The position numbers were made by a program, and so were the translations under genes. Below, in pieces: positions 3,257 through 29,224 of a stretch of DNA of 30,036 nt. The stretch's first letter is position 1, and every line of letters starts with the position of its first letter. The DNA is from a virus, in IMG/VR virus record IMGVR_UViG_3300049846_000156, positions 1 to 30,036 of that record; one strand, given 5' to 3'. The notes below the pieces were generated by a model. It was not told the DNA's origin. It ran no database searches and was given only the letters and a program-made list of their open reading frames with translations.

Positions 3257-4365
3257 TGAGCGACTACCGCGCTGATAGTATCCTTACGGGGTCCGACTAC
3301 CGCGTCGGGTCAATCATTTATGTCGCAGTCGGAGTAAGATCTGTAGGAAGCGTATCGGCGGATATCGGGTATCCCGGCGATCTCGTTGAAATATCTCTTA
3401 ACGGTACTTGGGATGCCGGCGGTAAAACGGCTACTCTTAATGGCGTTTCGCTGAGCATCTATCAACAATCAAGTACCTACATTCGGTTCTATGTTCCTAC
3501 CCCGTACGCAGATGGCTCGTCCTTTAGTGGATTGAATCTTGATACTGCGTATACACTTACTGTGGATGACTCCACAGTGAACCCTAAGTCTAGCCAGTTC
3601 GTTATCTCCTCTCCCGACGCTCCGACGTACTGGTACATCAGCTCTATAGCTGGGAGCCCGTGGGGCGAATCTTCGATCTTCTACGAATCCACTGGCCTCT
3701 CTAACGGGGACTCTGCATTTGTGGAAGTCCTTGAAGGTGGCCCGATGACCTCGATGCTTTCGGATGGAACATTCGTATCCGCGAACGCTATCAGGTTCCG
3801 CGCTAAGGCGTACAACGTAGATGGTTGGGGAACTAGCTGGGATACGTGGGATTTCAGGGAAACTCCTGCTCTGGAATTCGTGGCTACGATACCAGAGGTA
3901 ATCGACCTCCCCGTTGGCGTACCCGTTACTCTCCAGTACGACGATGAATTCGTCGGCGAGATCCAATCGTACTCTTTGACCGGTACACTCCCGAGTGGAT
4001 TAACTTTCGATACTGTCCTCGGTACTATCTCAGGTACCCCAGATACAGTCGAAACGGCTTCCGGCCTCGTGATCACTGCAACGGATGGAATCGATACTGT
4101 TGATTCTAATACGTTCAGTATCTCTGTTCTTTCATACGGCGGCCCTGGGTACTCCATTCCGCTGAATGATTACATCCGGTACTTAGCGAATAATGACTCA
4201 AGTGCTGGCGGAATCAACGACTCATGGAAGGCGTACCTCACCGCTGAAGGGTACAGTACCGGAACTATTAATGATAGACAGTTCCTGTGGCTTCGTGCTC
4301 TGGGGTATACTGGCTCTCTCTCAGATATGCTCACAGCGTACAAAGCTGATAATCTAATTCTCTGA
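3256..4365 (+). CDS. Ig-domain virion protein with C-terminal phage module
   Basis: A 369-residue protein whose ATG shares one base with the previous stop (TGATG). Residues about 35-118 resemble a TIG-type Ig domain (GYPGDLVEISLNGTW). Residues about 218-292 fit the putative-Ig (He_PIG) family, with the signature LPSGLTFDTVLGTISGTP at 245-262. The last 70 residues are different: an alpha-helical module with YLTAEGY, WLRALGY and GSLSDMLTAY. Similar short helical tails occur at the C termini of many unrelated phage structural proteins and may anchor them to the virion. The likely role is surface decoration or an adhesin that works with the neighbouring spikes. This is inference from domain type and position. 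Confidence 0.55.
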   Translation: MSDYRADSILTGSDYRVGSIIYVAVGVRSVGSVSADIGYPGDLVEISLNGTWDAGGKTATLNGVSLSIYQQSSTYIRFYVPTPYADGSSFSGLNLDTAYTLTVDDSTVNPKSSQFVISSPDAPTYWYISSIAGSPWGESSIFYESTGLSNGDSAFVEVLEGGPMTSMLSDGTFVSANAIRFRAKAYNVDGWGTSWDTWDFRETPALEFVATIPEVIDLPVGVPVTLQYDDEFVGEIQSYSLTGTLPSGLTFDTVLGTISGTPDTVETASGLVITATDGIDTVDSNTFSISVLSYGGPGYSIPLNDYIRYLANNDSSAGGINDSWKAYLTAEGYSTGTINDRQFLWLRALGYTGSLSDMLTAYKADNLIL

Positions 4366-4377
4366 CGTACTAATACT

Positions 4378-5511
4378 ATGGCATTAAACTATACACCTCA
4401 AACTGTACAATCTGGATACCAGAGCACAGAAACGCTGAATCAGAACTTCAGCGATATCGAGGAAGCACTTGCCGACGGCCTTTCGCGTTCTGGCGCTAGT
4501 CCAAACGCGATGGCCGCCGACATCGATATGCAGGCGAATCGGATCTTTAACCTGCCGAACGCTGTCAGCAACGGCGAACCTGTAACGTACCAACAGCTCA
4601 TATCCCAGTTCGCGGGCGCTGTAGAATTCACTGGATATCTTCAGGAGCTCCAAGTTGCGGAAGAAGGTCAGACTTCGTTTACTCTGGGTAATCAGTATAC
4701 TCCTGGGCTTGGCGCACTTCGTGTATTTGTTAATGGCCTTCACTATCCTCCTTCTGAGTACAGTGAGGTAGACGAAGAGACGGTACTGTTCAGCGCAGCA
4801 ATGACGGAAGGAGATGAGGTAGCATTCATCATCACGTCGTTCTCGGAAGCGAACTACGATACCGCAGCCACGGTGACGTACACAGATATCGATAATAACA
4901 ACACGAACCTTCAGGTGTACATCGATGCATTAGCAGGTGATGTACTCCAGTACTACGATGCAACAGATGGTAACATCCTTGTAGGGAACGGTACCACGTT
5001 TGTAGAAGAATCTGGAGCGACAGCTCGAGCAAGTCTCGGTCTGACCATCGGTACGAACGTACAAGCGTACGACGCAGATCTGACAACTCTCGGATCTCCG
5101 GGCTCTATGTCTGAACTCGATGCTAGCACGTTAGCAGCAGATGACCTCCTTGTGGTATACGATACCTCAGGTACTGCGTACAAGAAGATTCAACTCCAAT
5201 CTGTCGGCGCTCGTATCCAAGCTGCATCCACGCAGACGCTTGCTCTTGATGATGGGAACTCTCTGTTCGTTAATACCGGCGCAAGCACGTACACGATCAC
5301 TGTTCCTCCGAATTCGTCTGTAGCATTTCCTGTGGGGACCGAACTCGGCTTCCTCTGTCAGTCCACGGGCAAGATCACTCTCGCTCAGGGTTCTGGCGTC
5401 ACAATCACGTCGCTCTCCTCTTACAAGAGTGTGAAGGCTAGCGGCGGCGCGGCGTACCTTGTTAAGACTGCTACGAACACGTGGCACCTCGCTGGGGACC
5501 TTGAAGCGTAA
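4378..5511 (+). CDS. Tail fibre protein
   Basis: A 377-residue protein. The N terminus holds NAMAADIDMQANRIFNLP at 43-60, a motif shared by many phage tail fibre and collar proteins. A small beta module follows at about 85-155 (GQTSFTL, LRVFVNGLHYPPSEY, EGDEVAFIITSF). At about 208-235 is the widespread fibre motif ATARASLGLTIGTNVQAYD. The C terminus (about 275-377) is a beta domain with repeated ITVPPNSS and ITLAQGSG patterns. No lyase or peptidase motif is seen. No strong Shine-Dalgarno precedes ATG 4378, so it may rely on translation from upstream. A second fibre gene lies at 27533-29224, so the virion may carry two fibre types. Confidence 0.7.
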   Translation: MALNYTPQTVQSGYQSTETLNQNFSDIEEALADGLSRSGASPNAMAADIDMQANRIFNLPNAVSNGEPVTYQQLISQFAGAVEFTGYLQELQVAEEGQTSFTLGNQYTPGLGALRVFVNGLHYPPSEYSEVDEETVLFSAAMTEGDEVAFIITSFSEANYDTAATVTYTDIDNNNTNLQVYIDALAGDVLQYYDATDGNILVGNGTTFVEESGATARASLGLTIGTNVQAYDADLTTLGSPGSMSELDASTLAADDLLVVYDTSGTAYKKIQLQSVGARIQAASTQTLALDDGNSLFVNTGASTYTITVPPNSSVAFPVGTELGFLCQSTGKITLAQGSGVTITSLSSYKSVKASGGAAYLVKTATNTWHLAGDLEA

Positions 5512-5978
5512 TGCGGCTGAAGCAACTTATACCTGGACATGCAAAGTCTACTGACCCCAGCGGCCCAGTAATTGCGTATTCGAATAGAACTATTACGGCA
5601 AGTCATGTGGGCCCCGGTGGTCGTCAGTTCGCAATGACGTATCAAGGCGACGGCACGATCTACTATAACACGTGGGACAACTTTGATCCGGGCGATTCTC
5701 TAGTCCTCTCCCCCGCACATCTAGCAACTGAGTGGCTAGTTAATACAGAAGACCCAGCCGACTGGGAGATCAAGGCCACTTGGACGGGCACTGCCCCAGA
5801 CAGCCATTTTTCAAACACCTGGGAAGATATTGCGGGCGGCGGACTTTTTGCATGGACTCGTGGGAGTCCGGGCACTACTACTTGTACTCTTGCGATTTCT
5901 TTTAGAAGTACGCTTGATCCAGGCACTGTATACACTTTTTCAAATATTCAAGTTAGCTACACGCTGACTGCTGGTTAA
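5511..5978 (+). CDS. Hypothetical protein in the tail fibre cassette
   Basis: A 155-residue protein coupled to the fibre gene by TAATG. I do not recognise it. It is rich in Trp, Thr and Gly, with alternating hydrophobic patterns near the C terminus (TTCTLAISFRST, VYTFSNIQVSYTL) that suggest a compact beta-sandwich. There is no signal peptide or membrane segment. Position suggests a fibre-tip or assembly accessory protein. By hand count it has only two GTAC sites in 468 bases, roughly chance level, whereas the flanking fibre and spike genes are strongly enriched. This may mean recent acquisition. Confidence 0.5.
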   Translation: MRLKQLIPGHAKSTDPSGPVIAYSNRTITASHVGPGGRQFAMTYQGDGTIYYNTWDNFDPGDSLVLSPAHLATEWLVNTEDPADWEIKATWTGTAPDSHFSNTWEDIAGGGLFAWTRGSPGTTTCTLAISFRSTLDPGTVYTFSNIQVSYTLTAG

Positions 5979-5983
5979 TACAT

Positions 5984-7651
5984 ATGACACAAGCAAGAAC
6001 TAATGTTAACAGGCTTCGGTACCAAGAGTCTCTGAATCTAAAAGATTACGGAGCTACTGGGGATGGAGTAACTGATGATTCGCTGGCTGTTCTCGCGGCT
6101 ATTACTGATGCAGGCGGTATGCGGATCTACGTACCCCCGGGCACGTACAATGTAGAGACGTTAAACTCTACCGCCATTGATGCTCCGTTCTATATTTACG
6201 GCGATGGTACCTTTGATGGGAGCTCTACTGGGTACTTCAATATTGGCGGGGATATCGATTTCCTGCGCATCGAAGGCCTTAAGTTCACTAATATGCTTGC
6301 TCTCGCTAAAGCTTCTGCGGGCACGATCACTATTGATCGAGTTGAGATCGTTGATAACGTGATGACTGGATGCCTCGATGGGGTGAACCTAGCATGCGAA
6401 GTGCTTGAAGCTACTTGTCATGGCAATAAGTTCTATAATTTCACTAGTACCTCTAGCATTCATGGGATTCGCCTTGGCGATAACGACTTCGATACCACTG
6501 GTACCCAGACTAATTATCGAATCTACGATAACTGGATGGAGGATTTCGATAAGACTTCCGCTAGTGGCGAGTGTCATGGGATTCTGGCTTATGGCTATCG
6601 GATGTCCATCTGGGGGAATACTGTAAAGGATATCGTCAATAGTTCTAATGCTGTTGGCGCTGAAGGGATCTACGTTAAGGCTGTTGATGGTAATGTATAC
6701 GGCAACACGTTAGTTGATGCTGGTACGTACCAAGGTTATCTCGCTATTAAAGGCGTTTCGAATGGAGCTGAACGTATTAACGTCTTCGGGAATACATTGT
6801 ATTCCTCGTCCGGCGCTTATGATGGGATCTATATCGAGACTCCGAATACTAATTGCTTCGGCAATACTCTCGAGAATTTCGGCTCTCGTGCGATTGTAAC
6901 CGGAAGCTATGATCTCGGTATGATTCGTATTGCAGAGAACCATATCAAGAGTCATCGTGGACAATACGCTATTCTTACGCAGCATGCTGGCGTAGGGGTA
7001 GATATCTGTAACAACGTAGTTAATGGATTCACGAACGCAGTATCCTCGTCTAACCCGTCGAGTGCAATCTATGTAGCGGTATTTGCTGCTGGGAACCTCG
7101 ATAATGTTAAGATCCATGATAATACTATTGTATGTCCGAGCAACAGTGCGGGCACTAGGGTTTCTGGTATTAACGTACGAGTAGATACGGGCAACACTGT
7201 GAAACGGCTATCCATTGATGGGAACTCTGTGGACTTCACTGGGTGTGCTGTGACTAACCGTAACGATCTTCAACTCCAAGTTGACGGTGCGGTAACGCGT
7301 GCACATATCATGGGTTCTCAAGGGAATAACGTGACCGCCTCGTTTAACTGGACGAACCAAGCTAACGTGGTAGCACTAGCACTGGATTGGTTCGTGGGCT
7401 CTGCAAGTACTACTTGGGACCCGGGCTCTCTCGCGGATGGCGCAGGAGAGACGAAGTCTATGACGGTAACCGGAGCTTCGCTTGGCGATCAAGTTCTGGT
7501 ATCCTTCGATAAGGATCTTCAGGACATGACTCTGACAGGGTACGTAGTCTCGACGAATACTGTTGAAGCAAGGATTCAAAATGAATCCGGCGCCGGCCCT
7601 ACCGATCTCGCATCTGGTACGCTGAGAGCGAGCGTTAAAAAGATTTACTAA
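5984..7651 (+). CDS. Pectate-lyase-like tail spike
   Basis: A 555-residue protein. Residues 19-32 (LKDYGATGDGVTDD) and PPGTY at 51-55 are the classic entry signature of the pectate lyase superfamily 3 beta-helix found in phage depolymerases. A long solenoid follows to about residue 460, with many repeated Asn-Gly-Asn turns (YGNTLVD, FGNTLYS, IDGNSVDF). The last 75 residues (LADGAGETKSMTVTG through LASGTLRASVKKIY) form a small beta domain that I recognise as common at the C terminus of phage spikes and fibres. It probably helps trimerisation or capping. The role is host polysaccharide recognition and probably cleavage. Substrate and active-site residues cannot be read. It closes the adhesin cassette immediately before the packaging genes. 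Confidence 0.75.
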   Translation: MTQARTNVNRLRYQESLNLKDYGATGDGVTDDSLAVLAAITDAGGMRIYVPPGTYNVETLNSTAIDAPFYIYGDGTFDGSSTGYFNIGGDIDFLRIEGLKFTNMLALAKASAGTITIDRVEIVDNVMTGCLDGVNLACEVLEATCHGNKFYNFTSTSSIHGIRLGDNDFDTTGTQTNYRIYDNWMEDFDKTSASGECHGILAYGYRMSIWGNTVKDIVNSSNAVGAEGIYVKAVDGNVYGNTLVDAGTYQGYLAIKGVSNGAERINVFGNTLYSSSGAYDGIYIETPNTNCFGNTLENFGSRAIVTGSYDLGMIRIAENHIKSHRGQYAILTQHAGVGVDICNNVVNGFTNAVSSSNPSSAIYVAVFAAGNLDNVKIHDNTIVCPSNSAGTRVSGINVRVDTGNTVKRLSIDGNSVDFTGCAVTNRNDLQLQVDGAVTRAHIMGSQGNNVTASFNWTNQANVVALALDWFVGSASTTWDPGSLADGAGETKSMTVTGASLGDQVLVSFDKDLQDMTLTGYVVSTNTVEARIQNESGAGPTDLASGTLRASVKKIY

Positions 7652-7652
7652 A

Positions 7653-8144
7653 GTGGATAAGTCGAAGTTCTACTACACTGACGGCGTTCCTTTCCACGGG
7701 ATCTTTCGAGAGATCCCTATGAGTGGACAATGGATCAAAGAGGAGCCAAAGGATCCTGTGTATACCATCGGGTACGACGACACAGATCTTCCCTCTGCAC
7801 GTAAAATTTACATGGACTCTGTGAACGAATACGAGGCCGCTGTCCGGTTGACCCCCTCGTGGGAATACTGGAAGGGTATGCTCAAGACTTGTATCAAGAT
7901 CCGCCGAGAGATCGATAAGTGGCGTGAAGAGAAATATCAAAAAGACCAAGCAGAGGCCCGCCGGCTTCTCTGGGAAGCTGCCCAAAAGGGCAATGTATCT
8001 GCTCAGCGTATCCTTTACGAAGCCCGTAAAGAAGAGAAGGCTCAGCAGCAGCGCGCAAAACAAGAAGAACATCAGAACCAGAAAGAGACTGAGATGCTTC
8101 AGGACCGTCTGGCTCGCCTTACGGAATTGAAGTTAGCTAAATGA
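7653..8144 (+). CDS. Probable small terminase subunit
   Basis: A 163-residue protein starting at GTG 7653, two bases after the preceding stop, and overlapping the large terminase start by ATGA. The N-terminal half contains WEYWKGMLKTCIKIRREIDKW, broken here as WEYWKGMLK and IRREIDKW at about 69-90. The C-terminal half is a long, charged, helical, probably coiled-coil region (RRLLWEAAQKGNVSAQRIL, then Gln/Glu/Lys-rich). The small, helical, charged character and the coupling to the large terminase fit the DNA-recognition subunit. No helix-turn-helix is certain, so the assignment rests mainly on position. In this family it would bind viral concatemers and load the motor. Confidence 0.6.
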   Translation: MDKSKFYYTDGVPFHGIFREIPMSGQWIKEEPKDPVYTIGYDDTDLPSARKIYMDSVNEYEAAVRLTPSWEYWKGMLKTCIKIRREIDKWREEKYQKDQAEARRLLWEAAQKGNVSAQRILYEARKEEKAQQQRAKQEEHQNQKETEMLQDRLARLTELKLAK

Positions 8145-9760
8145 CTCCGGATCTTCAGGCGCTTCACTCGAAGAAGCGTGCGTACCAGCAAGAGATCATT
8201 GAGGCATGCGAGGGAAACCTGTACGCATTCGCCACGACGATCAACCCTGCGTACCTGTACGGTGATATCCACCGAGAGATCTTCTCGTGGCTCGCTGATC
8301 CTGAGGCTAATGAACGGCAACTCCTTCTACTTCCGAGGGGACATCTGAAATCGCACTGCATCGCAGTGTACTGTGCGTGGAAGATCACATACGAACCGTG
8401 GACCACCATCGTGTACCTCGCTTCGCAGGACGATCTAGCGAAAGCTCAGCTCTTCGCTATTAAACAGATGATGACTTCGGATATCTACACGTCCCTTTGG
8501 CCCGAGATGTTCACAGAACAGCGCGGTGTCAAGGGAGAACGTGGGACATGGTCCGCTTTCGCTTTCGATGTTGACCACCCGTCGCGTCGTGAGCGGAGCG
8601 TACGGGATCATACAATGCTCATTAAGACGGTAAAGAGTAATGCTCAAGGTCTGCATTGTGATGGGCTTGTGTTCGACGACGTTGTGGTCCCTCAATTCGC
8701 TGATTCCGCTGCCGGAAGAGGTGAACTTTCTCGTTCTCTGGGTTACTATTCTAGTATTCTCAATGCGGGCGGTTGGATTAAAGCCGTCGGTACTCGGTAC
8801 CATCCGGAAGATGCTTATCAATCGATGATCGATGCTACCATTCCTCAGTGGAATGAAGAGCTAGAAGACTTCGAAGGTGAAGTTCCGGCATGGGATGTGA
8901 TGGAAAGAGTCGTTGAGGACTCTCCTCAGCGCGCAGGAACTGGTAAGTTCCTTTGGCCGCGGACGGAATGCCCTAGCACTGGCAAAAGATTCGGGTTCGA
9001 CATCCGAGAACTCGCTAAGATCAAGGCGGACTACGTATCGCACCAAGGGTTGATTCATTTCTTTTCTCAGTACTACAACGATCCGAACGACGTTGGTACT
9101 CAAAGAATAGCTAGGAGCAGCTTTCAATACTATGACGAGAAGTTCCTTACCGTACGGACTGACAAGGTATATTTTAAAGGGAATAAACTCAACGTCTACG
9201 CCGCAATGGATGTGGCGTGGTCTGAGAGCGAGCGGGCTGATTATACAGCTATCGCTGTTATCGGTATTGATTCCGATGGCTACATTTATATTCTGGACCT
9301 TGATCGTTTTCGAACGAGCGACTTCCTCACTTACTACGAACGCATCGAAGCGTTGCATCAACGATGGTTCTTCCGCCAGCTCATTGTCGAGACGAATGCG
9401 GCAGGATCTCTTGTTGCACAGGAAGTTGAGAATCATGTCCGTAGAAACGGAATCACTCTTACTGTGGTTAGACGCGCCAAGAATAGCAGAACAGGTAGTA
9501 AGGTGGAGAACTGGGCAGCAGTCCTCGAACCGAGGTACCACAGCAAAAGTGTACTACACTTCTCCGGAGGATTGGTCCCGACCCTCGAAGAAGAACTGAT
9601 GTCGGCTAAGCCTCGACACGACGACCTCAAAGATGCTCTATGTGCCGCCGTAAGCATAGCTAAACCTCCATCAGCAGGACGCTCGGTGGACTACGACCAA
9701 CTGAACGAACGCTCTAACGTGGTGGTTGGGCGATTCGGTGGCAGAGTGAGAATCAGATGA
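8141..9760 (+). CDS. Large terminase subunit (packaging ATPase-nuclease)
   Basis: A 539-residue protein. The N-terminal ATPase shows a deviant Walker A, LPRGHLKS at 64-71, and Walker B LVFDD at 176-180. A coupling motif, GTRYHPED, follows at 217-224. The C-terminal RNase H-like nuclease shows acidic positions in AAMDVAW (Asp357), IVETNA (Glu417) and RHDDLKDAL (Asp494/495), which together would bind the metal ions. The length is typical for the family. It drives DNA into the prohead through the portal and cuts genome lengths from concatemers. The genes on both sides overlap it by ATGA, coupling the packaging proteins in translation. Confidence 0.93.
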   Translation: MTPDLQALHSKKRAYQQEIIEACEGNLYAFATTINPAYLYGDIHREIFSWLADPEANERQLLLLPRGHLKSHCIAVYCAWKITYEPWTTIVYLASQDDLAKAQLFAIKQMMTSDIYTSLWPEMFTEQRGVKGERGTWSAFAFDVDHPSRRERSVRDHTMLIKTVKSNAQGLHCDGLVFDDVVVPQFADSAAGRGELSRSLGYYSSILNAGGWIKAVGTRYHPEDAYQSMIDATIPQWNEELEDFEGEVPAWDVMERVVEDSPQRAGTGKFLWPRTECPSTGKRFGFDIRELAKIKADYVSHQGLIHFFSQYYNDPNDVGTQRIARSSFQYYDEKFLTVRTDKVYFKGNKLNVYAAMDVAWSESERADYTAIAVIGIDSDGYIYILDLDRFRTSDFLTYYERIEALHQRWFFRQLIVETNAAGSLVAQEVENHVRRNGITLTVVRRAKNSRTGSKVENWAAVLEPRYHSKSVLHFSGGLVPTLEEELMSAKPRHDDLKDALCAAVSIAKPPSAGRSVDYDQLNERSNVVVGRFGGRVRIR

Positions 9761-18573: not shown

Positions 18574-19185
18574 ATGGAACCAGCATCCTGGGCCGCGATA
18601 GCGGCGTTAGTACTAGCAGCAGTCAGTGCCGGTACTAGTGCGTACGCTACAAAAAAGCAGAATGATGCGCAAGAAAAAGCGCGTCGAATGCAGAACCGAC
18701 AAGCTTCTCTCGAGAATCAACGGAGAGCGCGCCTTGCTGTAGCCCAGCAGAGACGTATCAGGGCTGAGATGATTCAATCTACCGAATCAATGGGGGTTGG
18801 ATCTAGTTCATCCCTCGCAGGCTCTACGGGAGCTTTGGCAACACAGACCGCAGCTAATATCGGTGCAGCTAATACTCAATTAGCTGGAGACTTCGGCATC
18901 AACCGAGCTTTGTCTGAAGGGGCTAAGACTGCAGGGCAGTGGAATACGTACAGTAGCATTGCTAGCATAGGCTCACAGTTCGCAGGATTCGCTTCTAATC
19001 GATTCTACGATCAGCAACAAGCTGCGGCGCAAGATAATGCATTCCAAAGGCAAATGAATGCGCAGATGTACGAATGGAATAAGGCGATGGGTGGCCCGGC
19101 GATGCAATCCCCGGCGCCTATGAATGCTCCGGCTATGCGACCGAAGGTGCTCCTTTTTGGTCAGCCTCAGATGTCTCCGTTCTAA
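18574..19185 (+). CDS. Internal core/ejection protein with N-terminal membrane span
   Basis: A 203-residue protein. Residues about 6-25 are hydrophobic and Ala-rich (WAAIAALVLAAVSAGTSAYA) and are followed by a long helical, Gln/Arg-rich region. The C terminus is Met/Pro/Ala-rich. Size, span and position after the nozzle gene fit the T7 gp14 type of core protein, which leaves the virion first and forms a pore in the outer membrane. Sequence similarity to gp14 itself is not obvious by eye, so the analogy is positional. It opens the block of ejection proteins. Confidence 0.6.
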   Translation: MEPASWAAIAALVLAAVSAGTSAYATKKQNDAQEKARRMQNRQASLENQRRARLAVAQQRRIRAEMIQSTESMGVGSSSSLAGSTGALATQTAANIGAANTQLAGDFGINRALSEGAKTAGQWNTYSSIASIGSQFAGFASNRFYDQQQAAAQDNAFQRQMNAQMYEWNKAMGGPAMQSPAPMNAPAMRPKVLLFGQPQMSPF

Positions 19186-19195
19186 GAGTTAGTAC

Positions 19196-22100
19196 ATGAA
19201 TATTTTTGAAGATCTGCAGAAACCGAAGCCGGATTACAGCTACCTCTTTCAGAGAGAGAACCCCGTACTCCCTGCCACCGACATGGAGGCTATGCGGGCG
19301 GCGGCAAAGGTCGGACTCCTGGCAGGAGAGCAGCAATCTGCTGCTGCATTTCAAGAACTTCGCACAACTGGTAAATCTGATACAGTTCAGAGTATCTTGC
19401 TTGATTCCATGCGGGAGCAGGCGGATCAACTCCGCGCTCAGGCAGAGAATCTTGCGGCCGACAGATCTGTACCTTCTCAGCAAAAGGTAGAACTCATGAG
19501 GGAAACTGCTCTCCAAATGGAAGTTATCCCTATGCCGACGTTGACAGACCTTGTTCAACGTAAGGCCGCCGTTGAGGCTAGCACTGACTCGGCAAATGCT
19601 GAGCAGATCCAGAACATGATCGCTTCGAAGTACGATAAGATAGTACAAGCAGAGCGAGCTCCTATTAATGGAGCGCAGTTCCTGACCATGGATGGCGGCC
19701 CTGTTCGTCAGGTTCTTGATCTAACAGCGTCTGCGTTCATTCCCGGTCGTACCTGGAACATCGCCGAAGTTATTGACGAAGCATTCCCAGGGTTTGTATC
19801 TTGGAATGAGTACTTTCCGTATCCTATGGGAGGCGGTGGCGATCTTGTCGTTCGGTTTAAAGGGTACCTGAATACTCTTTCTCCCGACGAGCGAGACGTG
19901 GCTATTAAGAAGCTTGCTAAAGCTATCGATGAAAATAATCTTCTGACTTCTAATAACCAGTACCAGAAGTACGATCTGATGAGTACGCTCACAGATGATC
20001 TCACTCCCGGGAACTGGGAGCGTACTATAGAGAACATCTTCAGCGTTCTCGATGTTCTCCCCGTGGTCGGGGCCGTTGGAGACGGCTTAATGGGGCTGGC
20101 TAGAAAAGCATTTAAGAGTCCAATCGCTAAAGCTTTTGACGCGAAAGCTCAAGAGGCGGCTAGCGGGCTTGGCTCTCAACCGTTCAAGAAGAGGCCTAAT
20201 CCTACAGATCAGAAGGGTATTTGGGTTTACGATGCTGTTCGTAAAGTATATGAGTACATTGATAACCTGAACGAGATCCGACCGAGCGGAAGTACCGCAT
20301 CAGCAGTAGTTCGTGTGGCTCCTCGCGAAGGGCAACGACTTCTGAAAGCCGCAGTTGAGGATGAGACTGGGAAGGCTGCAGAGGCAGTAGGAACTACGCG
20401 CGAACAGATCACCGCAGATGATATCATGCCTAAGCAAGAGGGCAGCACGTCTCGCCCGTTTGCTGATCTGAACGATATCAATGATACTGTTGTAGATTAT
20501 AAAGGGAACCTTGGATTCTTCACTGATGAGGAAATCAAGAGTCATGTTAATCTCGTAGAAGATACGCTTCGACAAACTACCCCAAATGCTATCCACTCTA
20601 GGATGGAAGTTAGCTTCATACCTGGCGGATACGTTGGTAGGATGTTCATCTCCGATACTACGACTCACGGGTACAGCACGTTCCAACTTGCAGAGGATAC
20701 TGCTAAGTCTTTCCACGAGTACGACCCAGCTACGACTAGAATCCTTGCTAGAAAGCTTGAGACTGATGAATACGTACCAGTAGAGCAGGCAAAGAAGGAA
20801 GGCTGGTTCGACCCGGAGGAAGGCGATTTCGTAGTACAACTTGATGTAGTCGAGATGCTAGATCACAGGGCAGCTCTCGCTAACACTGGGATTTTCCATG
20901 AGAACTCTCTTGTGGGGAAAGCTGCTGCGTGGGTGGATAAGAGTGCGACTTTCCTTGGCTGGCTTACTAGTGCTGGAAACATCGCTTCCGATCTTGAATC
21001 AGCTAAGATCAAAGCCCTTAACCAGACTCTCAAGCCTCTTACTAAACTCTGGGCGAAAGACCAACAGAAGGTAATCAGCGTACTTGATCAAGGTGATCGC
21101 GAAACTAAGTGGTTCACTACCGAAGATCTTGCTGATATCTGGAAAGATGAAAAGAATGTCGACGATCTTATCGCAGGGTACCGCTCTGCAGTACGACACC
21201 AGCAATTAGTTCGCCGACTTCTGAATGATAGAACGAGATCACAGCTCGTAGCTGACGGATGGAAGCATGTAGTTCTGCCTCGCGGACAATTCCAAGAGAT
21301 GGCGGATCAACTTGGAAAACAAGTTTCTATTTCCGATCTGAAGGTACGCGGGAAAGATTACTTCGACAAAGACATCGAAGCAAATGTAAGTAGAATCTAC
21401 GACTCCGAACTTAACAGAATGGTTAAGACGGACATCGACGAGATCTCCAAACTTATTGATGCAAACCCGGGCAATATTAAAATCATCGAGCTCCAGAAAC
21501 CTGTCAAGGTTGGAAAGGAGTGGACGAAGTTCGTATTGTACAAAGAGGGCAAAGGCGTAGAATTCAAGAAACTCCCTGATGAAGTTATTCGTGATATACC
21601 TGGGTACATATCTCGGATATATGATGCCCCGTATATCTTAAAAGTAGAATACAATAGCCTTGTGAATGGTGTAAGAGTCAAGGGTCTTAAGGCTGTTCGG
21701 ATGTACGCCACAAAAGGAGAGGCTCTTAGGGATAAGGCACGCCTAGACCTTGAGTACGAAGCAAATAAGAATTCAGTATATGAAGATCTTGGTCTCCCTC
21801 TCCCTGAAAGGGACGATCAAGTTCTGAAGTACATGGTTACCGAAGCTAAAGAACTTCAACGGGATATCGAATACGCAAATAGAACCTCTCTTGAGTACCT
21901 TGAGAACTCTGGCCAACTCTTCACATCGCACCGTGGCGTAGAGGTTAAAGGCCTTAACGGTAAGCGTCGTCTGAAGTCTGTATCGGATAGTATGGCAGCA
22001 GCTCGCGCCCGTGCAGCTCGAGCTGGCACAATTGACCCCCTTGTCGATAAGCTCAAAGCTAACTGGGATAAGAAATACGGAAAGGATTTTGGAGTCAATG

Positions 22101-24181
22101 GGCAGATGCCTCTTGAAACCAGTCAGATCCGTCGCCCAACTGAAGTTACTCCGAATTCGGAACGGGCGTACCAAGAGGCTGTCGCGTTCCAGCGTCATAT
22201 CACGCACATCGCTGGCATCGATGAAACGATGTTCAGTGCTGTTAGCCGTAGTACTGCTATCAATCTGTCTAATTATCTAAGCAGATATGATAACGTATGG
22301 CTGAATCAATTAGCAGAAGGTGTGATGAGGAACCGTCATCGGAACCTGATCAATGCTGCCAAGGGTGCGAACTTCACTGTTCGTATCATCTTTAACCCGC
22401 TTAGACAGCTTCCCCTTCAGGCCATGCAGATGTCGATCTATCTTGGCTTAGACCACGGAGCGAAATACTTCCTATCCAAGCAGGGGATGAATGACTACCT
22501 CGGCCTGATCTACGGCACGATGTGGCGAAACACAGATCAATGGGAGCAATTCGGCTTGAAGCAAGGCGCCAAGTTGATGGGCGTCTCCGAGGCGGAATAC
22601 ACTAAGTTCATTGATATCTATCAACGACACGGTCTGCCTGCGTCAGTGGATTCTCACATGTACGCAATCTTCGCTAATGTGGACCGAGTAGTTGGCAAGG
22701 CGCCAGTGTATCAGGGGGCTGTTAATACTTTTAACACGTTCAGGAAATACGCCCGTCGAATTGGCTTTGACGCAGGCGAACAGTTCCAACTCATGGGCGC
22801 GTTCCTTGCTGTGCGAAACAAATGGATGAAGAACAATCCTAAGATCGCACACAAATGGGCAGAGCCTGGGAATATAGAGAAGATTTTTGGAGAAGCTCGG
22901 GTAGTTTCGTACAACATGAACAAGACTGGAGCGATGCAGTTCCAAAAAGGAATTCTCGGTCTGATCTTCCAGTTCCAAGCGCATGCTGTTAAGAGCATGC
23001 AAACGCTTCTACCGAACGAGTTCAAGCTCCTCGGAGATAAAACCAATACTGCGTATAAGAGGACTATCGGCAAGCTTTCTAACAAAGCGTTCTCAGATGC
23101 AGAGAAAGCTAGGATCGCATGGCAACAGTTCGCCCTGTTCGGTACCGGAGCGTATGGCGTAGGCCAGATGTGGGACAAGTTTCAAGAAACTACAGGTGTT
23201 GATACTCCTCCCGAAGTGGACCGCTCTATTCGGGAAGGCATCACTGGTACTCTCCTGAACATGCTGTTCGAAGCTTGGAATCAAGACGGCGAACAGATGG
23301 CCGATATCGAGTTCTCCGGCAACGCTGCTCCGTTCTCCGGAATCAGCGGCAGGAACCAAGTCTTTGGTACCGGTAACCCGATAGCAGCATTCCTTACGGG
23401 CATTGTACTCGAAGACAAGACTTCTCTCGAGTTCGGGTTAGGCCCGAGTTACGCCCTTGGCAAGGATGTATACGAAGCTTGGAAGTTCACCACGGCTGCA
23501 CTAGGTACCCCGTTTGAGCCTATCTCAGGACCCGAGAAGGGGATCGTTGTGGCTAACGAGTGGATGAAGACGTTCTTCCCGATCTATGGGAACTTCATGC
23601 GTGGGCGTGTAGCCCTCGAGCTGAACAGGTACGTTGCAGCGACAGGTGATGTCGGGGCTGAAGTTACCACTGGAGAAGCGATGGCTCTCGGCACTATGGG
23701 ATTGAATGCTCATAGTAACCGATGGCTCCAAGATGAACTTATCCAAATCAAAGGTCTGATCGGGAACCCGAAACAAGATAAACTCGGAGCCGAGATCGAT
23801 GCAGAGGCTGCGAACTTCTACAAGTTCTTGAAAGCGCATGCTGAACTTCTCGGAGAAGGGAAACTCGATCCTGTGGAGGGTACTCGCCTAGTTGAACTCA
23901 ATGCTCAGATGCTCAGCGACGCCCTGTCTGATGACGAACATCGTCGGTTCTTTAACAGAGTTCGGGATTTGATCCTTAATGATGTAACAAAAGATGGGCT
24001 TGAGACTCAATTCATTAATGCGGTTATCTCTGGGTATGCCGCTTATATCCCGGACATCAGAGACCCAGAATTCATTAACCGAATCCGCTCCGGCCCCGAG
24101 TTCTCCACTAAAGAAGAAACAATTAAATTCCTTGAAGAGATGAATCAATGGCAACGTATAGACCAGAATCCCCAGATGTAA
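19196..24181 (+). CDS. Giant internal virion (ejection) protein
   Basis: A 1661-residue protein, the largest in the window, after the gp14-like gene. It is mostly helical and charged, with Gln/Glu-rich coiled regions in the first 200 residues. Weakly hydrophobic stretches occur near residues 1080-1110 (VRIIFNPLRQLPLQAMQMS) and 1250-1275 (ILGLIFQFQAHAVKS). Order and size match T7 gp16-like ejection proteins, which extend through the cell envelope and pull DNA in. I do not see the Glu-containing lytic transglycosylase signature at the N terminus that T7 gp16 carries, so peptidoglycan cleavage may be absent or done by another protein. Its end overlaps the next gene by 34 bases. Confidence 0.68.
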   Translation: MNIFEDLQKPKPDYSYLFQRENPVLPATDMEAMRAAAKVGLLAGEQQSAAAFQELRTTGKSDTVQSILLDSMREQADQLRAQAENLAADRSVPSQQKVELMRETALQMEVIPMPTLTDLVQRKAAVEASTDSANAEQIQNMIASKYDKIVQAERAPINGAQFLTMDGGPVRQVLDLTASAFIPGRTWNIAEVIDEAFPGFVSWNEYFPYPMGGGGDLVVRFKGYLNTLSPDERDVAIKKLAKAIDENNLLTSNNQYQKYDLMSTLTDDLTPGNWERTIENIFSVLDVLPVVGAVGDGLMGLARKAFKSPIAKAFDAKAQEAASGLGSQPFKKRPNPTDQKGIWVYDAVRKVYEYIDNLNEIRPSGSTASAVVRVAPREGQRLLKAAVEDETGKAAEAVGTTREQITADDIMPKQEGSTSRPFADLNDINDTVVDYKGNLGFFTDEEIKSHVNLVEDTLRQTTPNAIHSRMEVSFIPGGYVGRMFISDTTTHGYSTFQLAEDTAKSFHEYDPATTRILARKLETDEYVPVEQAKKEGWFDPEEGDFVVQLDVVEMLDHRAALANTGIFHENSLVGKAAAWVDKSATFLGWLTSAGNIASDLESAKIKALNQTLKPLTKLWAKDQQKVISVLDQGDRETKWFTTEDLADIWKDEKNVDDLIAGYRSAVRHQQLVRRLLNDRTRSQLVADGWKHVVLPRGQFQEMADQLGKQVSISDLKVRGKDYFDKDIEANVSRIYDSELNRMVKTDIDEISKLIDANPGNIKIIELQKPVKVGKEWTKFVLYKEGKGVEFKKLPDEVIRDIPGYISRIYDAPYILKVEYNSLVNGVRVKGLKAVRMYATKGEALRDKARLDLEYEANKNSVYEDLGLPLPERDDQVLKYMVTEAKELQRDIEYANRTSLEYLENSGQLFTSHRGVEVKGLNGKRRLKSVSDSMAAARARAARAGTIDPLVDKLKANWDKKYGKDFGVNGQMPLETSQIRRPTEVTPNSERAYQEAVAFQRHITHIAGIDETMFSAVSRSTAINLSNYLSRYDNVWLNQLAEGVMRNRHRNLINAAKGANFTVRIIFNPLRQLPLQAMQMSIYLGLDHGAKYFLSKQGMNDYLGLIYGTMWRNTDQWEQFGLKQGAKLMGVSEAEYTKFIDIYQRHGLPASVDSHMYAIFANVDRVVGKAPVYQGAVNTFNTFRKYARRIGFDAGEQFQLMGAFLAVRNKWMKNNPKIAHKWAEPGNIEKIFGEARVVSYNMNKTGAMQFQKGILGLIFQFQAHAVKSMQTLLPNEFKLLGDKTNTAYKRTIGKLSNKAFSDAEKARIAWQQFALFGTGAYGVGQMWDKFQETTGVDTPPEVDRSIREGITGTLLNMLFEAWNQDGEQMADIEFSGNAAPFSGISGRNQVFGTGNPIAAFLTGIVLEDKTSLEFGLGPSYALGKDVYEAWKFTTAALGTPFEPISGPEKGIVVANEWMKTFFPIYGNFMRGRVALELNRYVAATGDVGAEVTTGEAMALGTMGLNAHSNRWLQDELIQIKGLIGNPKQDKLGAEIDAEAANFYKFLKAHAELLGEGKLDPVEGTRLVELNAQMLSDALSDDEHRRFFNRVRDLILNDVTKDGLETQFINAVISGYAAYIPDIRDPEFINRIRSGPEFSTKEETIKFLEEMNQWQRIDQNPQM

Positions 24182-26097
24182 CTCCTGTACAGATGAACCC
24201 GTACATCGGGATGTACCAAGATGGGTACGACCGTAGTATAACTGGGTTCGCTAGGGATGCAGCGAATGCATTCGAGTCTAGGCTCGGTCTGAATGGATCT
24301 GGCTCTAGCTCTGCTGCTAATCAATTAGCGATGCAGCGGTACGTGGACGAGAAGTCGGGCAAGATGGCACTCTCTCGGGCAGCTGTCGAGCAGTTAGATA
24401 TTTCGAGGGAGCAAGCGGTCCAAGCTCTTAGTTCTGTTCTTGGGTACAAGCCTAATGATCAAGAACTGGATGCTCTGATTCAAGGGCAAACGGATAACTT
24501 GAAGTTCCTGAATGCGGATATCCAACGCCCTCGAGCAGCATTGAATGTTCTTCGGAGAACTGCAGCAGTACGGGAACAGATCGCACGGAACCCCATGATT
24601 GGGCCAGAACTCCTGACCCTGTATAAAACTAGCATGGGGCGTGGCGCTCAGCAAGACCTAGCTACAGTTGAAACTCAAGTAGAAGATCGTCGTGCGAGCT
24701 TCATGAAGACTGTCGACGATACGAGCATGAGCTTGGGGATCGATCCTCGTCTCCCGTTCGAACAGCGCTCTGCTCTTGTTATGAAGCACTTCCAAGATGT
24801 AGAACGTGCTAGCGCTTTCCTGCGAGATAAGCAGGTACTTGATGCCCAAGTGGACCAAGATAAAGATAGTACTCTAACAAACCTGCGAAATATTGTAGGT
24901 GGACGCTGGGAGTACGTAGATGGTGTCATGAGGAACGTGGTCCCCGGCGTTATGGGGATGTTCAATCAGGCGAGAACTCAAATCCTGAACGAACTCGGAG
25001 TAACAGATATCTCTCGGATGACGCCTGAGCAACAACAGCAAGCGACCGAGAAGCTTGATCAATGGTGGGTTAATACTAACCTCGGCATTCGTGGCATTGG
25101 GAACCACCCCGATATCACTCAGGCAGACTATGACACCATGATCGCTCCGCTTAAGATCATGTATGATTCCACTCGGCTGGCGTTTTCAACCAAGGGGAAT
25201 GCTGATACGCTTAAAGCTGGCGAAGAGCAAGCTAATGCTCTGGCCACGATGGAATTGTTTAGCAGGAACCCCGAACTCCGGCAAACTAGGGCTGTCCTTC
25301 AAGTACTGAAGGATGCTCCAAATACCATGGCTGAAGCTGCAGGTAGCACCGAGTACGGCCGTCGATTGATAGGCACGCTTCGTGTGGCTGCTAGTGCATC
25401 CCTTAGTCAAGCTGAAGCGCAAGCCGGCATGGCTCAGGTAGTCAGGGATCCGACAAAAGCCGATGGGTATGTCAGAGAGAACACTCAGGGATTCCGTGAC
25501 ATGGCAGTGAATCCGAACATCACTGATGCAGAATTCAGTAAAGCCCTTGATAACTTCTTCGGGGCGTACGATCCTAGCAATCAAGATCTTGCTCGACTGT
25601 ACCACAACCAACTGCCTATCATGGCAGATCCTGCTGTTCGTGAACGTCTGACCAGAGCTGACCCTGCTGTTCGTGCACACCTTACTGATGCTATGGATAC
25701 GTATCTAAGTACTGTGATACAGCAGGCAAATGGTATCGTGCGCGACTCGCTTGGCCCTCGCATACCAGCTCTTGCTAGCTTTGAGAACGTACTTCAGGAT
25801 AGCATGAATATAAATTACACTCAAGACGGTCTCCCCGTCTTCCGTCCGATGCCAGATCAGGCTGGGAACTCCCGCGCTATCGCTGTGGCAGAGAAGTTAA
25901 ATGCTATTGCCCCCAGGATCAAGCAAGCAATTGATGTGTATCAATCTCTTGGACTGTATACAAACTTTGACAGAGCGGAAATGGCTAAAGTTATGATTGA
26001 GCAAGGGAGAACTCCTGATTATCTTGAAGCTCAAATGCGTCAACGCCAAGATAGTCTTGGAGTTAATACCCTTGACTTGAATAGAATTACATTCTAA
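24148..26097 (+). CDS. Internal virion (ejection) protein
   Basis: A 649-residue helical, Gln/Ala/Asp-rich protein starting at ATG 24148, 34 bases inside the preceding gene; AAGAGA-like purines lie upstream. An alternative in-frame ATG at 24193 would remove the overlap. No membrane span, signal or catalytic motif is visible. Composition (SRAAVEQLDISREQAVQAL, VRDPTKADGYVRE) and position fit a T7 gp15-like core protein that lines the ejection channel. Homology to gp15 is not claimed. Confidence 0.6.
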   Translation: MATYRPESPDVTPVQMNPYIGMYQDGYDRSITGFARDAANAFESRLGLNGSGSSSAANQLAMQRYVDEKSGKMALSRAAVEQLDISREQAVQALSSVLGYKPNDQELDALIQGQTDNLKFLNADIQRPRAALNVLRRTAAVREQIARNPMIGPELLTLYKTSMGRGAQQDLATVETQVEDRRASFMKTVDDTSMSLGIDPRLPFEQRSALVMKHFQDVERASAFLRDKQVLDAQVDQDKDSTLTNLRNIVGGRWEYVDGVMRNVVPGVMGMFNQARTQILNELGVTDISRMTPEQQQQATEKLDQWWVNTNLGIRGIGNHPDITQADYDTMIAPLKIMYDSTRLAFSTKGNADTLKAGEEQANALATMELFSRNPELRQTRAVLQVLKDAPNTMAEAAGSTEYGRRLIGTLRVAASASLSQAEAQAGMAQVVRDPTKADGYVRENTQGFRDMAVNPNITDAEFSKALDNFFGAYDPSNQDLARLYHNQLPIMADPAVRERLTRADPAVRAHLTDAMDTYLSTVIQQANGIVRDSLGPRIPALASFENVLQDSMNINYTQDGLPVFRPMPDQAGNSRAIAVAEKLNAIAPRIKQAIDVYQSLGLYTNFDRAEMAKVMIEQGRTPDYLEAQMRQRQDSLGVNTLDLNRITF

Positions 26098-27536
26098 TGG
26101 CTAACTATCTTAAGTACGTTAGGGAGTTGTTGTTCAGCCCTGAAACAAGAGTTTTAGCTGAGCAGAAAAGAGCAGCTGTTGAGTCGGTTAATAGATTGCA
26201 ACTTAATAATGCTGCAACGCTTCGACAGATGAAAGAGACAGGACTTCCGCAAGCAGAAACTGAGCAGCTTGCTCGAGATCTCGTTGTTTTGCGGAGAATA
26301 CGTGGAAATAATCTCCGCATTCCTCTTGCCCGTCAAGCTAAAGAGGTTGGAGATTGGCAAACAATTTCTAAAATTGCAAGACGACACGTAGAAGGATCAT
26401 TTTTCTCTAGTGATTTTAAGACTGGTCGTTCTAACTACGATGACGATTTGGGAATAAGAAGTCAAAAGTTTGATCTTACCCATGAAGTTGTCGACATGAC
26501 CCCGGATCAATACATAGATGAGGCATCAAAGCTCCTTCATTCCACAAGAGAGAATGTTCTTTCTACTAGGCCTTTAGATAACGATCTAGTTCAGACATTC
26601 CTTAACAAGGGGAACATGGATATTCCTTACCTAGATTACTCAAGGGAAGGCTTCGGTCAGGAGGGTCTCAACAGGGCGGTCGCCGCTAAAGAGCTGGGAA
26701 TAGAAAAGATTCCAGTACTGCGAGTTCGGAACAGATTCCCAGCCGGCGGAGCAGTTGAACCTTGGTATAAGATCGGTGAAGACTCATATTTCGTCCCGTA
26801 CTATAAGATGAACTCTAAGGTTGTATCAAAGGAGGATTGGGCTCGGGCAATTCTCTCTAGGGCCTATAACGACCCAAACGCTGTAGAGTACGTAATCCAA
26901 AATAATCTTAATGATTTAGTTAAGACGGTAGATAAAGCATATAGAGATTCTATTGGAAATCCTGAATACTTCGATTTTCCTTGGGGATTCACGGACGACT
27001 TAGAAATAACGTACGATTTTCTTCCAAGCGAAGAAAAATTAAATAGGTTCAAGTCTCCCTTCAAGGGAGATTTCAACGCCCTTGCTACACAAGATAACCC
27101 AGCCCTCTTTGATCAGGATAAGCGCTTAGTAACCGAAGTAGATAACATGCTCGACGAAGTTAAACATCGTGGGGATGTGGCGAATCAGGTCGCACACGGC
27201 ATTATCATGAAGGCCCAAAGGAACTCATCTGCGAAGTACAATATGAGTACTAAAGTAGATCAGATTGACGAGTTCTTTTCTGATTCGAATAACTACAAAG
27301 ACAATGTAGATAAAGTTATTGAGCTCTTGCCAGAAGATAGAGTTCTTAAAGCTAGACTTCAAGAGGCTGTTATTCAGGATCAAGGCGCGTTTAAACAACT
27401 GGTCTCCGATGCCTCCCAAGCAGATCTGACTATGGAAGATCTTAGTAGGGTCATCCTTAACATCTATGAAGATAATAATAGAGAGTTCAAGTACGAGTCG
27501 GGAGACTTCTTGAAGTACGTAGGACGACGTAGATGA
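26097..27536 (+). CDS. ParB/sulfiredoxin-like protein in the ejection block
   Basis: A 479-residue protein coupled to the ejection gene by TAATG. Residues 134-140 (MTPDQYI) and 188-207 (QEGLNRAVAAKELGIEKIPV) match the ParB/sulfiredoxin-like pattern in which EGRHRA-type residues bind nucleotide or phosphate. The expected first Arg is Leu191 here (EGLNRA), so activity is uncertain. The rest is helical with no span. Codon use is clearly different: many AGA/AGG Arg and A/T-ending codons, and a lower GTAC density than neighbours, suggesting transfer from elsewhere. In phage polyvalent proteins such domains are injected and act on host DNA or proteins. A structural role in the core is the alternative. 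Confidence 0.5.
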   Translation: MANYLKYVRELLFSPETRVLAEQKRAAVESVNRLQLNNAATLRQMKETGLPQAETEQLARDLVVLRRIRGNNLRIPLARQAKEVGDWQTISKIARRHVEGSFFSSDFKTGRSNYDDDLGIRSQKFDLTHEVVDMTPDQYIDEASKLLHSTRENVLSTRPLDNDLVQTFLNKGNMDIPYLDYSREGFGQEGLNRAVAAKELGIEKIPVLRVRNRFPAGGAVEPWYKIGEDSYFVPYYKMNSKVVSKEDWARAILSRAYNDPNAVEYVIQNNLNDLVKTVDKAYRDSIGNPEYFDFPWGFTDDLEITYDFLPSEEKLNRFKSPFKGDFNALATQDNPALFDQDKRLVTEVDNMLDEVKHRGDVANQVAHGIIMKAQRNSSAKYNMSTKVDQIDEFFSDSNNYKDNVDKVIELLPEDRVLKARLQEAVIQDQGAFKQLVSDASQADLTMEDLSRVILNIYEDNNREFKYESGDFLKYVGRRR

Positions 27537-29224
27537 AACGCCGTAAACCGCAGAACTCTCGGTTGATCAGGGCTGGCATGATGTACGCCCCCCCGAGTAC
27601 AACCACAGGTACTGGGTCTGGGCATGAGATCCAAGAGGAAGGGGTAGCCCTTACTCAACGGGATACGTTGAACTTCACTGGCTCGGGTATTACCGCTTCT
27701 GATACTGGATCCAAGACGAATGTCGCTGTGCCAGCTGATACTCTATATGATGGGAGTACTGCTGTAGTTACCACTAATGCCGACTCTGTCGACATCGATG
27801 AACGACGCATCAAGGTAACTGAGACTGACTTAGTTGAGTACGCATCAGTAGAGTTATATAGCCCGACAGGCGACTCGTTCGTATTCAACAAGGCAGCAAG
27901 TACTGCTAGCGCATTCTATCAGAATCATGCGATTGATCAGATGCTATTCGAGAGTTACGTCGGGGATGTAGTACTTAATACTACAACCGCTGGGGACTCT
28001 ATCATTCTAAGTGAGAATGATACAGAAGTCATGAGCACAGAGGCTGACGGAGTTAAGGTAACTCGTCGAGTTAATATCTCCCCTGCCGCAGGAGATCTAG
28101 CATCCCCCGTTAATGGGGATGTGTGGTACAATAGTACTAGCGGTAAGTTCAAAGCTAGGCAAGCTGGTAGTACGTACGATGTACTACATGATGCCGTTAC
28201 TGTAGCTGATAGTACCACAGTAGATATGTCCCTGACTGGGCAACAAGTTAGCGCTGCTGTTATCAGTCAGATGTCTATTACCTCTGATGCCTCGGGTATC
28301 AAACTCAGTGGGGACTCTGCCTCTCCTGGCAACACGATGTTGTACGGGACGAACGGCAGTGGTACTAAGGGGTGGTACTCTCAGCCAAGCGGAAGCTTAA
28401 CTGATGGGGACAAGGGGGACATCACTGTCTCCGCTTCCGGGGCTACGTGGACCATCGATAACGATGCAGTTACGTACGCTAAGATCCAGAACGTATCCGC
28501 TACAGATAAGCTCCTAGGACGCAGCACAGCGGGCGCTGGGGATGTCGAAGAGATCACCTGTACTGCAGCAGGCAGGGCCTTGATAGACGACGCAGACGCA
28601 GCGGCACAGCGTACTACGCTAGGCCTTGGATCATTTGCTACAGTTACTCCTGGTAACTGGAAGGTGATCTATACTGACGGATCTGGCGTTATCACAGAGC
28701 TTGCTCTCGGCGGATCAGGTACCGTTCTCACTAGCAACGGCGCTAGCTCAGCGCCCACATTCACAGCTCCTACTGGAAGTGGATTCACTCAGCTAATAAA
28801 GACTAGCAGCACAGCTAAGACCAGCGATAACACGCTAGCTAACGACTCCGTGATGCAGTTCAGCGCTGCTGGTAGCACACAGTACGTGATCAGAGGATTG
28901 GCTGTGTTCTCTACAGCGAACGCTACGCCCGACTTCAAGTACATGTTTAACTACACAGGCACTATCACTGAATGTTCATGGCATATTGGAGAAACCGTAT
29001 TAGGTAACACTTCCTCCGTTACATGGGTTCTCGGCGGAGGCACCGCCTTCCCCGCCTCGAAGTCAGTAACATCAACCTCCACGGGCAGAGGCTTTGTGAG
29101 GTTCGAACTAACTCTAAAAACTAACGCATCGGGTACGTTCTCGTTCCAATGGGCACAGAATACATCAGACGCTAACGCAGTGAACCTTGTTCAAGGTAGC
29201 TACATGGAGTACAAGGCAGGATAA
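27533..29224 (+). CDS. Tail fibre or collar fibre protein
   Basis: A 563-residue protein starting in an ATGA overlap. The N terminus is basic (MKRRKPQNSRLIRAG). The middle contains VNGDVWYNSTSGKFKARQ, a motif of fibre and head-fibre proteins. At about 290-360 is the widely spread module DGDKGDITVSASGATWTID, then LLGRSTAGAGDVEEI and AAAQRTTLGLG. The C terminus (about 415-563) is a beta domain, probably a trimeric binding head. It differs entirely from the fibre at 4378-5511. A tail or collar fibre is likely; its place next to ejection and lysis genes is like T7 gp17. Confidence 0.68.
   Translation: MKRRKPQNSRLIRAGMMYAPPSTTTGTGSGHEIQEEGVALTQRDTLNFTGSGITASDTGSKTNVAVPADTLYDGSTAVVTTNADSVDIDERRIKVTETDLVEYASVELYSPTGDSFVFNKAASTASAFYQNHAIDQMLFESYVGDVVLNTTTAGDSIILSENDTEVMSTEADGVKVTRRVNISPAAGDLASPVNGDVWYNSTSGKFKARQAGSTYDVLHDAVTVADSTTVDMSLTGQQVSAAVISQMSITSDASGIKLSGDSASPGNTMLYGTNGSGTKGWYSQPSGSLTDGDKGDITVSASGATWTIDNDAVTYAKIQNVSATDKLLGRSTAGAGDVEEITCTAAGRALIDDADAAAQRTTLGLGSFATVTPGNWKVIYTDGSGVITELALGGSGTVLTSNGASSAPTFTAPTGSGFTQLIKTSSTAKTSDNTLANDSVMQFSAAGSTQYVIRGLAVFSTANATPDFKYMFNYTGTITECSWHIGETVLGNTSSVTWVLGGGTAFPASKSVTSTSTGRGFVRFELTLKTNASGTFSFQWAQNTSDANAVNLVQGSYMEYKAG

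Follow-up and report, generated by a model that had tools for sequence, protein, structure and literature searches.

A phage gene with a ParB/sulfiredoxin-like domain in an exchangeable slot behind internal virion genes of a Zobellviridae-like podovirus: a putative ejected effector

Results

The virus record IMGVR_UViG_3300049846_000156, whose entire 30,036 bp are referred to here as the window, carries at positions 26097 to 27536 of the plus strand a gene for a 479-amino-acid (aa) protein with a ParB/sulfiredoxin (Srx)-like domain. The open reading frame opens with ATG, its start shares the stop codon of the preceding gene (TAATG, 26095–26099), and its end overlaps the next gene by ATGA (27533–27536). 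It is part of an uninterrupted late operon in which gene junctions overlap, and lies immediately 3′ of genes for internal-virion-type proteins. Apart from the reading frame and its translation, the gene is supported by an ortholog in the same slot of a related contig, L109 (36% identity over 150 aa). The two sequence blocks on which the original prediction was based, MTPDQYI at residues 134–140 and QEGLNRAVAAKELGIEKIPV at residues 188–207 with leucine at position 191, were confirmed in the translation. Both fall into a domain of residues ~127–212 (26475..26732, plus strand) that was recovered by alignment (A1), by leave-one-out and motif-masked hidden Markov models (HMMs), by an AlphaFold2 model and by fold searches.

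Single-sequence scans of the 479-aa protein against Pfam, PHROGs, NCBIfam and PDB sequences returned nothing useful, and tblastn found no significant match for the whole protein in phages or for the domain in phages and plasmids. Two of the weak tblastn matches, L010 and L011, were true relatives of the domain by HMM. IMG/VR was scanned at the DNA level for the pattern [HQ]EGx[NH]RAxAxxxLG, which yielded 92 stretches, and a domain of ~95 aa recurs across nearly all of them. Under strict patterns, an MSPDEYI-like upstream block and a downstream IPV strand, both outside the scanned pattern, were present in 46 and 63 of the 66 non-redundant matches, respectively; shuffled sequences carried them in 0.1% and 0.5% of cases. 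The profile built without the window scored the window at 73.8 bits and produced zero reversed-decoy matches. After removal of the scanned motif from the model as well as from the target, the window score was 46.8 bits, and none of 2,000 shuffles exceeded 6.7 bits. Since the window is recovered by the leave-one-out and the motif-masked profiles alike, the domain is real and homologous to its relatives rather than a motif coincidence. The domain belongs to a phage family of the ParB/Srx type: among PDB sequences the A1 profile matched SbnI (E 0.0011), and 13 of the 32 A1 members matched a ParB-like PHROG.

The AlphaFold2 model of the domain calculated from alignment A1 reached a predicted local distance difference test score of 80, with a core above 90. 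Ranks 1 to 31 of the Foldseek search against the PDB were ParB, Noc, sulfiredoxin, SerK, SbnI or PadC-type structures; rank 11, an unnamed Pyrococcus protein, was also among the VIA rows for these structures. The VIA rows were dominated by the ParB/Srx superfamily with Z scores up to 6.5, and the OSA protein was listed as well. In BFVD, the two matches with E <0.001 were an uncharacterised siphovirus protein and a protein annotated as acetyltransferase, and many of the matches that followed were named ParB/Sulfiredoxin. Because the matches are consistent, with no clear outsider in the Foldseek list, although each is weak alone, the domain almost certainly adopts the ParB/Srx fold with its alpha+beta core, as judged from the model. 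A confident fold prediction lacking this architecture had been named as the outcome that would speak against the original prediction; the opposite was obtained.

The phosphate motif (P-motif, Box II) of the GxxR type is formed by G190-L191-N192-R193 (26664..26675, plus strand) and preceded by Q188-E189. It was assigned from invariant columns of alignments A1 and A2 and from the ParB register. In an ungapped alignment to a cellular ParB protein, of low score and used only for its register, the GHRR of ParB falls on these four residues. According to this register, the equivalent of the essential P-motif arginine is R193. This residue is invariant across the 32 A1 sequences, and E189 and G190 are likewise invariant in A1 and A2. 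Replacement of the arginine in GxxR by alanine abolished nucleoside triphosphate (NTP) binding in tested ParB-fold proteins, and 17 of 28 purified ParB-fold proteins showed no detectable nucleotide binding (PMC12704722). Among the 66 relatives, 51 have Arg at residue 191; the other 15 have Leu (9), Ile (3), Met (2) or Asn (1). The earlier suggestion that Leu191 replaces the usual first arginine needs correction: the essential phosphate-binding arginine is R193, which is retained, and residues other than arginine recur at position 191 in the family. Position 191 corresponds to the catalytic cysteine of sulfiredoxin, and it aligns with a valine in SbnI. Leu191 therefore excludes sulfiredoxin chemistry and yet leaves the essential arginine in place, and Leu191 and Asn192 together mark a variant phosphate motif.

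Comparison with known systems places the domain near several ParB-fold families. ParB/Srx domains occur in polyvalent proteins with P1 DdrB as prototype, whose delivery alongside the DNA has been inferred (Iyer et al. 2017, PMC5512222). The window domain resembles DdrB-like ParB (PF18763) in fold class, in its virion-gene neighbourhood and in the fusion of its relatives to ADP-ribosyltransferase (ART) and other polyvalent domains. An aspartate ending strand 2 (YLD in the window domain) is also shared, as described for DdrB-ParB (PMC5512222). In contrast to DdrB, the window protein is single-domain and no metallopeptidase was recognised in it. At E values as high as 10, the PF18763 profile matched neither the window nor any of 20 records that contain relatives. 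P1 DdrB gave no HMMER match to the family profile, and hhalign against the single DdrB sequence, a low-powered test, gave none either. On these tests membership in DdrB-ParB was rejected, and the window domain appears to be a separate family inside the ParB/Srx superfamily.

SbnI, which together with SerK represents the ParB-fold, ATP/ADP-dependent free serine kinases, is the best PDB sequence match of the family profile. It shares the [DE]G-x-[HN]-R motif and the following LG..IPV strand, and its equivalent of residue 191 is also non-Arg. It differs in that the His at position 192 is replaced by Asn in the window protein, in which nothing resembling the C-terminal domain of SbnI was seen. The catalytic glutamate of SbnI is E20; by inspection, the E20 region is not conserved in A1, in which [DE]G-x-x-R is aligned. 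Sulfiredoxin reads GCHR in its GxxR motif, which is found at the same place, and shares the fold (VIA Z 5.0–6.0). However, the window protein carries Leu191 where the catalytic cysteine of GGCHR sits and has no cysteine in any of its 479 residues, so identity with sulfiredoxin was rejected. Canonical ParB/Noc CTPase (cytidine triphosphatase) clamps have the fold and the P-motif arginine in common with the window domain, but they read GERR instead of GLNR, and the ParA-binding LG[KR]GL is absent from the translation. Family scans recognised no helix-turn-helix, ParB family or C-terminal dimerisation domain in the 479-aa protein.

Outside the domain, the protein consists of an N-terminal helical region of residues 1–126 (26097..26474, plus strand), supported by the full-length AlphaFold2 model and by BLASTP to the L109 ortholog, in which residues 70–126 are conserved, and of a C-terminal helical region of residues 213–479 (26733..27533, plus strand), which rests on the same model and is missing from the L109 ortholog. 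No relatives of residues 213–479 were found. The full-length model has low confidence at residues 218–242 and 288–333. A sub-threshold Pfam match to CYRIA-B_Rac1-bd over the helical C-terminus was taken as chance, and an internal repeat was unsupported (z −0.2). The segment SYFVPYYKMNSKVVSKEDWARA (window 26784–26852, residues 230–252) resembles SRYVPYYKKNKNKISGEELANI, encoded within 16923–17624 of L109, with z 5.6. In the window protein the segment follows the domain, and in L109 its counterpart precedes the domain, a possible local rearrangement.

The window belongs to a short-tailed phage of marine type and carries markers of a Zobellviridae-like phage, namely a portal (phrog_332), a major head protein (phrog_267), a tail appendage (phrog_8094) and a holin (phrog_3427), and its tail appendage matches Zobellviridae including CVT22, CW02 and MEP401. 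Upstream of the 479-aa gene lie, all on the plus strand, a gene for a 203-aa internal-virion-type protein in a gp14-like position (18574..19185; phrog_8168, E 4e-13; phrog_805 internal virion protein, E 0.006), a gene for a 1661-aa internal virion or ejection-type protein (19196..24181; phrog_12003 internal virion protein, E 3e-21) with syntenic homologs in Zobellviridae, and a gene for a 649-aa protein (24148..26097). The latter has 24% identity to its L109 ortholog (E 1e-20), is syntenic with genes for 599–726 aa in relatives and gave no family match in the scans run. The downstream gene for a 563-aa protein (27533..29224, plus strand), which forms the ATGA overlap with the slot gene, is probably fibre-like and has a partial match to L122; its product had no PHROG match. 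Far upstream, before the terminase gene and beside other probable fibre genes, lies the gene for a 369-aa protein (3256–4365), in which a putative Ig domain was recognised (He_PIG, E 2.6e-10).

A profile-guided search starting from the tail appendage returned 80 relatives. Relatives keep the gene order, which runs from the tail appendage through the small and the giant internal protein and the ~650-aa protein to the slot gene, and the contents of the slot were observed to change. In L109 (tail appendage 55% identical), the ortholog has 233 aa, occupies exactly this place, again with an overlapping junction, and stops just past the ParB/Srx-like domain. The closest sister contig, L108 (tail appendage 71%), encodes instead an 811-aa slot protein with a C-terminal ADPrib_exo_Tox domain; this gene spans 19196–21631, and the first 640 residues of its product are unassigned. 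ADPrib_exo_Tox was also found in the slot of L121, ART-PolyVal under the gathering score in that of L111, and SLT plus ART-PolyVal in that of the annotated phage MW202697.1, so that ADP-ribosyltransferases fill the slot of four sister phages. Like the window protein, they are encoded 3′ of the two internal-virion-type genes, but they have an unrelated fold and chemistry and no sequence similarity to it. Peptidoglycan-related proteins occupy further slots: phage lysozyme in L139, L157, L169 and L129, SLT in L144, L153 and L167, GH108 in L166, a peptidoglycan-binding domain in L145 and a phage tail lysozyme in MEP401. The slot genes of L146, L160, L180 and L182 had no family match, and in some other relatives this position passes directly into lysis genes. 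From these contents the slot appears to be the home of exchangeable proteins of entry or cell-wall function, of which those beside holins may be lysis enzymes. The sister slots support the reading of this position, 3′ of ejection-type genes, as an effector-type slot.

Relatives of the domain elsewhere also occur in virion-linked proteins. The domain is C-terminal in MuF (Phage_Mu_F) proteins of L085 and L088, fused to ART-PolyVal in L019, L067 and L083, and fused to LPD38 and RadC in L067. These fusions with ART-PolyVal, LPD38 and MuF bear out the postulated tie to polyvalent proteins. Polyvalent proteins combine at least two disparate domains in one polypeptide; this is the case in L019, L067 and L083 but not in the 479-aa protein. 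The sole relative from the bacterial genome contigs scanned, L186, is a large polyvalent-type protein, and nothing therefore points to a cellular housekeeping role. On this contig of a metagenome-assembled bacterial genome, the gene (2231–8215) encodes at least 1995 aa, with the domain (QEGRHRALAAERLG) upstream of a region that by eye is methylase/SNF2-helicase-like. In L010, the protein encoded at 2752–4233 (Octadecabacter Antarctic DB virus 2 gp6) contains the domain followed by a stretch that by eye resembles an ADP-ribosyltransferase (LYHGARDPF...GVYTTPS).

The composition of the gene had been described as foreign. Its G+C content (GC) is 0.425 compared with 0.498 for the window, the lowest of any gene for more than 100 aa and at the 0.9th percentile of sliding windows of the same length, and its GC at third codon positions (0.402) is the lowest among all window genes. 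The AT-rich codon set with many AGA/AGG was borne out as well, with 21 of 36 arginine codons compared with 125 of 480 in the other genes. While the low GC is real, the slot genes of L109 (0.425) and L108 (0.430) are equally GC-poor, so that a composition called foreign may be no more than the usual one of this slot. The low GTAC density is a weak argument: at 6.3 per kb it is below that of the window (9.7 per kb), but the three upstream neighbour genes also reach only 7.6–8.2 per kb, and the 9 sites observed against ~14 expected are within chance. GTAC is the most over-represented palindromic tetramer in positions 1–30036 (292 sites, 2.5 times the mononucleotide expectation), followed by GATC (2.1 times). 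Among relatives, GTAC is enriched 2.0- to 2.4-fold in L109 and L110 and 1.5- to 1.7-fold in L107 and L108; there is no enrichment in L111 and L004.

Discussion

The original interpretation is partly supported: its main line stands, and its arguments from Leu191 and from composition are corrected as described above. The best reading of the 479-aa protein is, tentatively, that of an ejected NTP-using effector. Its gene would be an exchangeable cargo gene carried by a Zobellviridae-like podovirus. The product would be made late together with the virion proteins, would most likely be packaged beside the internal (ejection) proteins and would enter the cell with the DNA at infection. Such delivery at entry is somewhat more likely than not; if the protein is delivered, an NTP-dependent activity is likely. 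The domain would most likely bind nucleotide via E189 and the GLNR P-motif (R193) and might act on a host target as an NTP-dependent enzyme, be it a phosphotransferase, an NTPase or a nucleotide-driven switch. A ParB/Srx-fold protein would then play the role that ADP-ribosyltransferases have in sister slots.

Several observations weigh against this interpretation. Taken singly, the fold matches are weak, with a best E of 0.03 and a TM of 0.38. Leu191 and Asn192 (Thr in L109) depart from the usual R-H of the family, and through these changed residues the activity could be altered or lost. Neither family scans nor the model revealed domains besides the ParB/Srx-like one in the 479-aa protein, and a common N-terminal delivery tag was not found among the slot proteins (z ~3.2 for window versus L108). 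Moreover, the slot is the boundary between virion and lysis genes in some relatives, for instance in CVT22, where holin and endolysin come next. Since some slots border lysis genes, some of the peptidoglycan enzymes found there may be lysis genes, and position alone is no proof of ejection.

One alternative is a virion-associated but structural protein, whose helical N- and C-terminal regions would let it serve the ejection complex as a plug or chaperone and whose ParB-like domain would be a remnant that binds nucleotide or DNA without catalysis. With ~390 of the 479 residues outside the domain and mostly helical, and with L-N (L-T in L109) in place of the consensus R-H, this explanation survives best among the alternatives, but we regard it as unlikely because E189, G190 and R193 stay invariant and clear enzymes occupy the same slot in sister phages. 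Furthermore, the L109 ortholog is hardly larger than the domain and the N-terminal region, indicating that the domain is the conserved part. Slightly less likely still is a late intracellular protein that is not ejected and serves, for example, packaging, nucleotide metabolism, superinfection exclusion or lysis timing. The lysis modules bordering the slot in several relatives would fit such a function, whereas the domain relatives in MuF and ART-PolyVal/LPD38 proteins, which have a known or inferred virion route (PMC5512222), and the polyvalent-type ART domains in sister slots argue for the virion.

An injected DNase degrading host or rival DNA, in keeping with the label "ParB-like nucleases", is improbable. 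DNase is one possible activity of the ParB domains of polyvalent proteins (Iyer et al. 2017, PMC5512222), and OSA, a VIA structural neighbour, has reported DNase/ATPase activity (cited in PMC5512222). However, doubt has been cast on describing ParB as a nuclease (PMC3482391), the 479-aa protein showed no additional nuclease motif, and nucleotide binding and phosphotransfer are the best-supported activities of close structural neighbours. Least of all do we favour a recently acquired foreign gene without fixed role (a moron), its low GC a trace of recent transfer: its GC, below that of all other larger genes, and the doubled AGA/AGG usage would suit it, but the diverged ortholog in the identical slot of L109 and the low GC common to the L109 and L108 slot genes indicate a long presence of the gene or the slot in the lineage, which largely refutes this idea.

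In a wider and so far doubtful proposal, Zobellviridae-like podoviruses would keep a dedicated cargo slot that exchanges unrelated entry effectors, namely ADP-ribosyltransferases, ParB/Srx-fold enzymes and peptidoglycan hydrolases, and the ParB/Srx family would be a new class of injected NTP-dependent host-modifying enzymes with an unusual GLNR/GLTR phosphate motif. With our analysis, we describe a ParB/Srx-domain family that is recurrent in phage virion-linked proteins and was missed by single-sequence Pfam, NCBIfam and PF18763 searches, together with a defined genomic slot in which sister podoviruses appear to swap entry effectors. If the interpretation as an ejected effector is true, the slot would be a simple address at which to look for novel injected effectors in a phage family that is abundant in aquatic habitats, and the domain would test the use of the ParB fold as an injected NTP-dependent enzyme.

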